Below, in pieces: positions 9,483 through 15,897 of a stretch of 64,000 bases of DNA. Positions within the stretch are counted from its first letter, which is position 1. Every line of letters starts with the position of its first letter. The stretch covers positions 1 through 64,000 of the IMG/VR virus record IMGVR_UViG_3300046171_000231, one strand, 5' to 3'. The notes below the pieces were generated by a model, which saw only the letters and a program-made list of their open reading frames with translations, was not told the DNA's origin and did not search any database. The position numbers and the translations under genes are program-made. Source of the DNA: a virus.

Positions 9483-10040
9483 TTAATATAGCACTTCTAC
9501 AAGAGGATTCAACTTCTCTTGTGACACTTCAATTACTGGCATATAAAGGGTTCCATATTTACCGAATATTCGTCTAAACTTACCAAGTCTATCGCCAAGA
9601 TAAACTATTGCTGATTGAAATGGAGCTGCACCTTTTCCATTTCCAAATTTTAATCTTTTATTAATTGCTAGAAATGGATAGGTTGATATTGACTTCCACC
9701 ATCTTGTCGATACATCCATCTTAATCAACAGGACTAACTCTTTTGCGTGTCCTAGTTGATACTGTGATACTGCATAGGGTATCCACTCTTTACTATTACT
9801 ATATGGATGATTCATAAACACACTCTCGGCAACCCAATTTTGTGCTAAACCATTTATTTTCTCGTCAAAAAGTTTTTTAGCGGGTACATTGGGATTCTCG
9901 ATGTCATTACAACAGGGGTCTAAATCTAGTTTGTTATCGAAAAATTCTAGTACATCCCCTACAAACTCTGGTGGGGTGTTCCAACAATCAGTTCGAGTTC
10001 CTGTTGTTGCTGTTAAAGCTTTTAATGCTGTTGATGCCAT
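9483..10040 (-). CDS. dam: Phage DNA N6-adenine methyltransferase (Dam family, 185 aa)
   Basis: DCWNTPPEFVGDVLEFF, LDLDPCCNDIENPNVPAK, then VFMNHPYS match the phage Dam family: a substrate/AdoMet region followed by a DPPY-like catalytic motif, here NHPYS rather than NPPY. A GLAQNW segment precedes the motif, as usual. Such enzymes methylate adenine (often GATC) to protect phage DNA. A TATAAT box ends only seven bases before the ATG, so a near-leaderless transcript is possible. It is divergent from a plus-strand small gene. Confidence 0.82.
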   Translation of the reverse strand: MASTALKALTATTGTRTDCWNTPPEFVGDVLEFFDNKLDLDPCCNDIENPNVPAKKLFDEKINGLAQNWVAESVFMNHPYSNSKEWIPYAVSQYQLGHAKELVLLIKMDVSTRWWKSISTYPFLAINKRLKFGNGKGAAPFQSAIVYLGDRLGKFRRIFGKYGTLYMPVIEVSQEKLNPLVEVLY

Positions 10041-13812: not shown

Positions 13813-14775
13813 TTATATAATATCTAAGATGTTAATGCAAGTCTCTTGTGCCACTTCTTGAACTGGTTTATATTCTTGCACTCTCTTCTGAATTAAGTTA
13901 CCATAATCTTCGTGTAGTTCGCACCCAATATAATCTCTGCCAAGTGCCTTTGCGACTGCAGCTGTAGTTCCAGAACCCATAAAAGGGTCAAGTATTATAT
14001 CTCCTATCTCACTCCCTGCAAGTATGCAAGGTTCAATCAAGTCAGGTGGATATGTAGCAAAATGAGCTTCACGATATGGTTTATTTGTTACTGTCCAGAC
14101 AGAGCGTTTATTCTTTGTTGGATATGATTTTGTAAGTCCGCTATGTGGTTGGAGTCCTGTTCCTTCGTTGTGATATTTTCCATTTGTTCTGTCTCTTGTT
14201 CCCCAATCTTTTGCGGGTTCTTTGATTGCTTCATTATTGTAGTAATACTTTTTGTTTTTACTGAATAAAAATATATATTCGTGTGCCTTCGTACACCTGT
14301 CTCTCACACTTTCTGGCATTGGATTTGGTTTATGCCATATTATATCTTGACGTAAATGCCATCCATCATTTCTCATTGCAAATGCGAACATCCACGGAAT
14401 ACCTATCAAATCCTTTTCTTTAAGTCCTTCTAATTTATTTGCTCTCTTCGCACATTTATCTGGTAGGTCTTGTTTCGTTTTAGATACTGATTGTTTGACA
14501 AGTGCTTGACCTTTACCAGGTCGATAGTTATAGTAACTATCCCCAAGATTAACCCAACAAGTTCCATCATCAGTAAGAACATTTTTTACCTCTCGGAATA
14601 CTGATACTAATTGTTCAATAAATTCCTCTGGAGTTTGTTCCTGACCGATTTGTTTATCCTCTCCACCATAATCTCTAAGTCCATAATAAGGTGGGGATGT
14701 GATGCAAGTCCTTGCCTGTTCATCAAACTCTTTGAGTGTCTCACGACAATCTCCAAATAAAATTGTGTCTCTCAT
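13813..14775 (-). CDS. Beta-class N4-cytosine-type DNA methyltransferase (320 aa)
   Basis: Motif IV TSPPY (residues 26-30) precedes the AdoMet-binding motif I DPFMGSG (263-269), the beta-class order; SPPY favours N4-cytosine methylation. Conserved IIWHKPNPMPESVRDR and AHEYIFLFSKN fit. The start overlaps the end of the MvaI/BcnI-like endonuclease gene as ATGA, and MvaI itself (CCWGG) is partnered by an m4C enzyme. It therefore most likely protects phage DNA from that nuclease. Target specificity is inferred. CCWGG sites are present in the window (for example 20656 and 34421). Confidence 0.85.
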   Translation of the reverse strand: MRDTILFGDCRETLKEFDEQARTCITSPPYYGLRDYGGEDKQIGQEQTPEEFIEQLVSVFREVKNVLTDDGTCWVNLGDSYYNYRPGKGQALVKQSVSKTKQDLPDKCAKRANKLEGLKEKDLIGIPWMFAFAMRNDGWHLRQDIIWHKPNPMPESVRDRCTKAHEYIFLFSKNKKYYYNNEAIKEPAKDWGTRDRTNGKYHNEGTGLQPHSGLTKSYPTKNKRSVWTVTNKPYREAHFATYPPDLIEPCILAGSEIGDIILDPFMGSGTTAAVAKALGRDYIGCELHEDYGNLIQKRVQEYKPVQEVAQETCINILDII

Positions 14776-15458
14776 TTAATAATCTCCTTAACAAATAATT
14801 TGTCCAAATGACTACCTTTCATACGAAATGCTGTTCCTCTGTCTCTAATACTCAAACCTTTATTATACTGTGTATAGAACCTAAAGTCAATGGATATAAT
14901 ATCATCTATAATTAACTGTTTGAACAGTTCTTTACTGGTTCCTGTAAGAATATATGCTTCGTTGAACCAGAAGTATATTTTATCTCCTTCTCTTTTTTCT
15001 TCTCCATATACTTTAATAGCTCTAGGAAATTTCTTGACAAACTGTGATGTTAGTGATTTCCAAGACCATTGACATAATATAGTATCATTCAATCTAACAT
15101 ACAATTTATCTGTTGTGTCTAACCATAGTTGTCTTTTATTTGGTGTTCTAGTTATTGTGGATTGTATTGTCTTTTCTCCTTTGTGTGTTGCGTGTTCCCA
15201 TCCATAATCATTTACTACCCTCTTTTGTGGTATTATCCACTCAGGAGATTTGTTGAACAAGGTCATTTTTGATTTTGTTCGCTTACTCTGAACTTTTATC
15301 TCATGCCCATCTATATCAGGAGCATCTATATTGTTCTCAGTTAAACCAAGTAAATCTTCAAAGGTATTACCAAATTTACCATCGCCTTTTCTTGTAATTT
15401 CAATAAAACCCTCTGATTTAATTTGTTTGTATCTTGGTATAAATTCTTGTATGTTCAT
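14772..15458 (-). CDS. MvaI/BcnI-family type II restriction endonuclease (228 aa)
   Basis: GNTFEDLLGLTENNIDAPD (residues 30-48), followed by GHEIKVQSKR with E53-x-K55 and MTLFNKSP (65-72), matches the MvaI/BcnI restriction family: the acidic residues near 48-50 plus ExK form the PD-(D/E)XK site. The C-terminal RDRGTAFRM also fits MvaI. Length is close to MvaI and BcnI. MvaI cuts CCWGG and BcnI CCSGG as monomers that nick each strand in turn. The gene directly precedes its likely methyltransferase with a four-base overlap. A complete R-M pair in a lytic myovirus is unusual; whether it is active is unknown. Confidence 0.83.
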   Translation of the reverse strand: MNIQEFIPRYKQIKSEGFIEITRKGDGKFGNTFEDLLGLTENNIDAPDIDGHEIKVQSKRTKSKMTLFNKSPEWIIPQKRVVNDYGWEHATHKGEKTIQSTITRTPNKRQLWLDTTDKLYVRLNDTILCQWSWKSLTSQFVKKFPRAIKVYGEEKREGDKIYFWFNEAYILTGTSKELFKQLIIDDIISIDFRFYTQYNKGLSIRDRGTAFRMKGSHLDKLFVKEIIK

Positions 15459-15459
15459 A

Positions 15460-15897
15460 TTACCTCTTCAAAAACTCATTTAAAATCCAACTACTACTAT
15501 TCATCTTATTATCGCCACCGACACCCCACTCAAAGACAACTCTTTCATTATCTTTAAATTTAAGATATTCTGGAACATTGGTGTCAACTCTATCTCCTCC
15601 ATTACAGAATATCACTCTATCATACATTTGTAAACACTTATGGATTGCCATACAAGATGTATTATCTGTATCATCATAAGTAATCGTCAAGTCAACTGGT
15701 TTAAGTTCTTTGACTATTAATCTTCTTTCTGCCATTGGTAAGAAATACTTTCCTTTCTTACGAATTAACCACTCATCAGAATTTAAACCGACACACAATG
15801 GTACGCTAGGGTTAAACTCTTTAGCATCCCTAAAATATGCGATGTGACCACTATGTATGGGGTCAAATCCACCTGTAACTAAAATAATTGCACTCAT
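15460..15897 (-). CDS. Cytidylyltransferase-like nucleotidyltransferase (145 aa)
   Basis: VTGGFDPIHSGHI (residues 7-19) contains the HxGH nucleotide-binding motif (H15-S-G-H18) of the cytidylyltransferase superfamily, and CVGLNSDEWLIRKKG plus MAERRLIVKEL match the HldE/TagD branch. Such enzymes activate a phosphorylated sugar or glycerol with CTP or ATP. In cyanophages the substrate is not known. One base separates it from the endonuclease gene; it overlaps uvsW by four bases. Confidence 0.8.
   Translation of the reverse strand: MSAIILVTGGFDPIHSGHIAYFRDAKEFNPSVPLCVGLNSDEWLIRKKGKYFLPMAERRLIVKELKPVDLTITYDDTDNTSCMAIHKCLQMYDRVIFCNGGDRVDTNVPEYLKFKDNERVVFEWGVGGDNKMNSSSWILNEFLKR

Follow-up and report, generated by a model that had tools for sequence, protein, structure and literature searches.

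The closest characterized relatives of the endonuclease described here are R.MvaI, which cuts CC/WGG, and R.BcnI, which cuts CC/SGG. Both belong to family PF15515, and these solved members of the family work as monomers, cutting first one strand and then the other. Virus-borne systems in which a restriction endonuclease gene (R) lies adjacent to a methyltransferase gene (M) have been described in chloroviruses and marseilleviruses, relatives of which carry M alone or neither gene, as is also the case here (PMC7019647, PMC7253447). Chlorovirus restriction enzymes degrade host DNA; mutual exclusion was reported not to depend on them (PMC7019647). The marseillevirus restriction–modification (R–M) system does not degrade host DNA; it has been suggested to act as a weapon directed at co-infecting viruses, against which orphan methylases would be a self-defence (PMC7253447). 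The roles proposed for these systems, host DNA degradation or competitor exclusion, are those considered below, but chloroviruses and marseilleviruses are eukaryotic viruses with enzymes of other families (CviAI-like and others), whereas the present locus combines an MvaI/BcnI-family nuclease with a phage methylase in a bacteriophage. The cyanophage isolates P-SSM2, P-SSM4, P-SSM7, S-SSM4 and P-HM1 encode an orphan methylase (phrog_67, T4-GC 38) of the same family as M (77–87% identity) and have no MvaI/BcnI nuclease alongside it; here R is inserted directly upstream.

The window analysed is a stretch of 64,000 nucleotides from a viral record of 235,761 bp. The genome encodes a T4-type major capsid protein, gp23 (E=2.7e-152), and its gp32, gp26 and PhoH regions resemble those of cyanomyophages. 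On these matches it is a T4-like cyanophage, as an earlier note, made from the window alone, had proposed. The features of the locus are as follows.

13813..14775, minus strand: M gene, beta-class amino-methyltransferase, 320 aa, cyanophage orphan methylase of phrog_67 / 'T4-GC 38' (PF01555, phrog_67)
14772..14775, minus strand: ATGA overlap of the R stop codon (TGA) and the M start codon (from the sequence)
14772..15458, minus strand: R gene, MvaI/BcnI-family (PF15515) PD-(D/E)xK restriction endonuclease, 228 aa (Pfam, PDB phmmer, AF2/Foldseek)
14776..15466, minus strand: segment missing from the empty site of the close relatives L067 and L068 (blastn of flanks, ORFs)
15460..15897, minus strand: cytidylyltransferase-like protein (PF01467, 1.9e-8), upstream neighbour of R, outside the R–M pair; abuts M in R-less relatives

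Elsewhere in the same genome, at about 231.6 kb (L002:1141–1734, minus strand), there is a gene for a 197-aa MutH-like protein. It matches NCBIfam MutH over most of its length (E=2e-6), falls in phrog_15364, a group of unknown function, and occurs in 25 Synechococcus phage records, mostly as 'hypothetical protein' and once labelled MutH.

The assignment of R to the MvaI/BcnI family is confirmed by profile, active site and predicted fold, and nuclease activity is predicted. The PF15515 match (E=2.4e-40; 139.4 bits against a cut-off of 25) spans profile positions 3–227 of 227, and phmmer recovers R.MvaI (PDB 2oa9, 5.7e-18) and R.BcnI (2odh, 1e-11). The likeness thus runs over the whole length in sequence and fold, although R is phage-borne and only about 25–27% identical to the solved enzymes. 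R contains FEDLL (residues 33–37), a PD-4aa-ExK motif (D48, E53, K55), TLFNKSP (66–72) and GTAFR (208–212). The PD-4-ExK spacing equals that cited for R.BcnI (PMC4081073), while the TLF and G-T-A-F-R blocks are in common with R.MvaI. The active-site residues, E34, D48, E53 and K55 in a MutH-like arrangement, do not vary in any of the 22 sequences aligned, at identities down to 29%. An AlphaFold (AF2) model built on an alignment of 21 viral homologues has a pLDDT of 90.2 and a pTM of 0.82; its top Foldseek matches are MvaI (2oaa, 1.5e-19, TM 0.71) and BcnI (2odi, 2.4e-17), followed by MutH. The earlier note had named this family from the motifs FEDLL, ExK, TLF-KSP and GTAF. All four are found in R, the HMM search and the structure prediction both recover the family, and E53 and K55 are retained across the relatives. 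The reading frame is intact, and a dN/dS of approximately 0.2 against close relatives (0.18–0.21 at dS 0.54–0.68) indicates that purifying selection acts on R.

M matches PF01555 (N6_N4_Mtase, 1.8e-58) and phrog_67 (7.4e-79), and its motif order, TSPPY (26–30) and then DPFMGSG (263–269), is that of the beta class. The TSPPY motif favours m4C and is typical of N4-cytosine methylases, and M is probably an enzyme of this type. GenBank names of its homologues conflict, being either 'dam' or 'cytosine methyltransferase'. Identity to the orphan methylases of cultured cyanophages is 87% for S-SSM4, 85% for P-SSM7, 79% for P-SSM4 and 78% for P-SSM2. The window also encodes a second DNA methylase, of the Dam family (9483–10040, minus strand; PF05869, 9.2e-17; phrog_111).

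R and M lie on the minus strand at the positions given in the earlier note, with the four-base overlap that it described, and its claim of a complete pair holds in that both genes are intact and adjacent. The ATGA overlap is likely to couple translation of the two genes. R relatives, clustered at 90% identity, form 21 clusters including that of the window, 20 of which have enough downstream sequence to judge; in 18 of these the same M follows directly with the same ATGA overlap. Amongst the M-paired clusters, identities are approximately 40–83% for R and 61–88% for M. All 29 distinct full-length M genes that have R beside them show the −4 overlap. However, 67 of 122 nuclease-free copies of M share a four-base overlap with some other upstream gene, and the overlap was therefore rejected as proof of an R–M unit: the adjacency stands in favour of a pair, but the overlap taken alone is weak evidence for one.

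In each of the two remaining clusters an MvaI/BcnI-family nuclease stands alone, its active site intact (L051:10001–10693 and L056:9974–10675). No M was found anywhere in either contig (a 126,920-bp T4-like contig for L051 and a 22-kb contig for L056), though the contigs may be incomplete. The solo R of L051 sits amid T4-type replication genes (clamp, clamp loader, DNA polymerase). In P-SSM4, also a T4-like cyanophage, the same orphan methylase is directly preceded, in the same slot, by genes annotated 'restriction endonuclease II' and 'DNA methyltransferase' (PSSM4_046/047; L062:2359–4004). No Pfam or PADLOC model matched these two genes, so that by these tests they are not of the MvaI/BcnI family, unlike R here. 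The position upstream of M seems to be a place where DNA-modification genes are exchanged.

Comparison with five cellular MvaI/BcnI systems (Polynucleobacter, another Burkholderiales genome, Halorubrum, Geobacillus and Lactococcus plasmids) reveals a common R family and different partners. All five cellular methylases carry the TSPPY (m4C-type) motif but are otherwise unrelated to the phage M: their best PADLOC models are PDLC03371, 03305 or 03322, while all phage methylases tested, with or without R, fall to PDLC03387. In addition, the cellular M is convergent or divergent to R in four of the five systems, whereas the phage genes are co-directional and overlapping. The earlier note's description of the pair as MvaI/BcnI-type needs correcting in this respect, M being a widespread cyanophage orphan and outside the subfamilies found with the cellular enzymes. 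From this small sample, the phage pair looks like a cellular-type nuclease united with a phage methylase. What appears to be new is the joining of a mobile restriction enzyme to a phage methylase, a partnership that differs from those of cellular MvaI/BcnI systems.

The nuclease is far rarer than the methylase in phages, as had been suggested: amongst 50,697 annotated phage records, tblastn found a relative of R in one, even at E<=10; 629 contain some relative of M. The single R relative (52% identity) is in marine virus AG-345-L05 (Kyanoviridae). We did not accept that AG-345-L05 is an infected Prochlorococcus cell, as plate AG-345 derives from an extracellular sort gate (PMC6122165). In IMG/VR, about 40 contigs contain R relatives, with identities of 29% to 83%.

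Two close relatives, L067 and L068, preserve an exact empty site. Their M is 97% identical to that of the window in protein and approximately 93–94% in DNA, and the L067 flanks are 94–96% identical to the window on both sides by blastn. In both relatives the cytidylyltransferase gene abuts M directly with ATGA, and in the window R is inserted exactly at that junction. By this alignment R is a clean one-gene insertion beside M, absent in close relatives. On a tree of 151 methylases, R presence switches at least 11 times, compared with 24–29 for shuffled labels, a count that cannot separate gain from loss; the methylases are limited to the best 80 matches of two queries, and frequencies amongst them are not estimates for nature. 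In the marine cyanophage part of the tree, the nearest relative of every methylase accompanied by R (window, L139, L088, L016, L057, L018, L020 and L013) is R-less. Searches upstream of the 122 orphan M genes found no R remnants.

R has also moved between methylase lineages, because the R of L013 is close to that of the window (82% identity, dS 0.54) while its M is more distant (77% identity, dS saturated). Since R is found beside diverged M lineages, such moves would be lethal unless the various methylases share protective specificity. The R gene of L015 (4087–4773), compared with window positions 14772–15458, is a mosaic, with DNA identity of 94% over the first 30 codons, 44–62% in the middle and 81% near the end. 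This suggests recombination inside R, possibly tied to a change in specificity. In the reading that we prefer, R is an optional module that has repeatedly joined or left a pre-existing cyanophage M gene.

The recognition site was approached through site avoidance. The earlier note pointed out that CCWGG occurs in the window; there are 36 occurrences, and 148 in the 235,761-bp genome, while CCSGG is absent from both. In phages bearing M, observed/expected CCWGG is 0.54–0.60 with R and 0.51 without it, an equal depletion, and CCWGG ranks only 35th of 72 or 51st of 73 motifs when depletion with and without R is compared. Specificity could not be read from avoidance of CCWGG, CCSGG, CCGG, GGCC or other palindromes, and this route was rejected, as CCWGG depletion does not track R. 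The lack of CCSGG follows from the avoidance of CCGG by most T4-like cyanophages examined, with or without R. The residue after TLF is N in R, T in MvaI and H in BcnI, so that central-base specificity is not confidently transferable, although the GTAFR block is MvaI-like. Marine Caudovirales genomes with methylated CCWGG have been reported (PMC9516812).

Some shorter palindromes are nearly missing from the 235,761-bp genome: CCGG occurs once, GCGC and CGCG not at all, against 79, 67 and 40 expected under a Markov model. In 50-kb stretches of other cyanophages, CCGG numbers 0 in P-SSM2, P-SSM4, S-SSM4 and S-PM2, 1 in Syn9 and 37 in S-SKS1, and TCGA is absent from the S-SSM4 stretch. These counts point to strong avoidance of particular 4-mers, which differ between cyanophages.

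With a probability of roughly 0.6, we consider that R and M form a virus-borne Type II R–M pair that would cut unmethylated rival-phage DNA, host DNA or both. M would mark the phage genome during replication, so that virion DNA reaches the next cell pre-protected. R would be made from the same transcript, translationally coupled to M. It could safely precede M in the operon because the phage DNA arrives already methylated. As a monomeric MutH-like nuclease, R would nick and then cut its short site wherever the mark is missing; its targets would be the DNA of co-infecting phages with no matching methylase and perhaps the host chromosome as well. Cyanophages with M alone would be immune to competitors that bear R. 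Adjacency need not mean shared specificity, because M is usually an orphan with a function of its own.

The same pair could serve mainly to break down host chromosomal DNA, supplying nucleotides and helping the phage to take over transcription, rather than to exclude rivals. Cyanomyoviruses are without denA, ndd and denB, with which T4 degrades host DNA, and an alternative route has been suggested (PMC2984593). Chlorovirus restriction enzymes have this role (PMC7019647). We regard this as rather unlikely to be its main job, as most T4-like cyanophages manage without R, which was found in only one of the phage records searched; the marseillevirus system spares host DNA (PMC7253447), and a widespread orphan M suits immunity better than nucleotide recycling. 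It is improbable that R and M are not cognate, with R a MutH-like site-specific nicking enzyme of replication, recombination or repair that merely occupies a variable slot upstream of M. The fold, the two solo clusters (one amid replication genes) and the many unrelated genes that fill this slot with the same overlap all fit such an enzyme; yet 18 of 20 evaluable R clusters lie directly on M across very different phages, the closest solved relatives are double-strand restriction enzymes rather than MutH, and a distinct MutH-like protein is already encoded in the genome.

The exact one-gene insertion, the clean empty site and the repeated gains or losses of R across the M tree would also be expected of a selfish free-standing endonuclease that spreads in a homing-like manner, by cutting R-less genomes at or near M and being copied in; homing enzymes of the free-standing kind abound in T4-like phages. 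This is very improbable here: the solved MvaI/BcnI enzymes recognize 5-bp sites, far too short for homing, and R-less relatives carry M and would hence be protected. No homing-endonuclease family was found among the Pfam and phrog profile matches. That R is inactive or decaying, with only M of consequence as an anti-restriction enzyme against host nucleases, is scarcely credible. R is dispensable, in that most relatives lack it, but its intact frame, invariant catalytic residues and dN/dS speak against decay, as does the lack of R remnants beside orphan M genes.

Within the R–M reading, a weapon-and-immunity arrangement is attractive, given that R is repeatedly present in some phages and absent from others beside an M that is widespread. 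It is possible, though we hold it at less than even odds, that R acts as a mobile, toxin-like module docking at the start codon of M, and that lone cyanophage methylases are kept as immunity to rivals bearing R. The idea of restriction as a viral weapon has been proposed for giant viruses; it was not found for cyanophages in the open-access literature searched.

Many cyanophages and other phages carry orphan methylases, whose purpose is a matter of debate. In the present case a nuclease has repeatedly joined or left one methylase gene, near-identical relatives preserve the exact empty site, and the pattern of R and M presence and absence makes the role of the cyanophage orphan methylases testable. 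The locus suggests a concrete case of phages using restriction enzymes on each other or for takeover of host DNA, and R would offer a route of host-DNA degradation to T4-like cyanophages, which are without the T4 genes for it. If true, the weapon-and-immunity reading would account for a class of orphan methylases in phages to which no role had been assigned.
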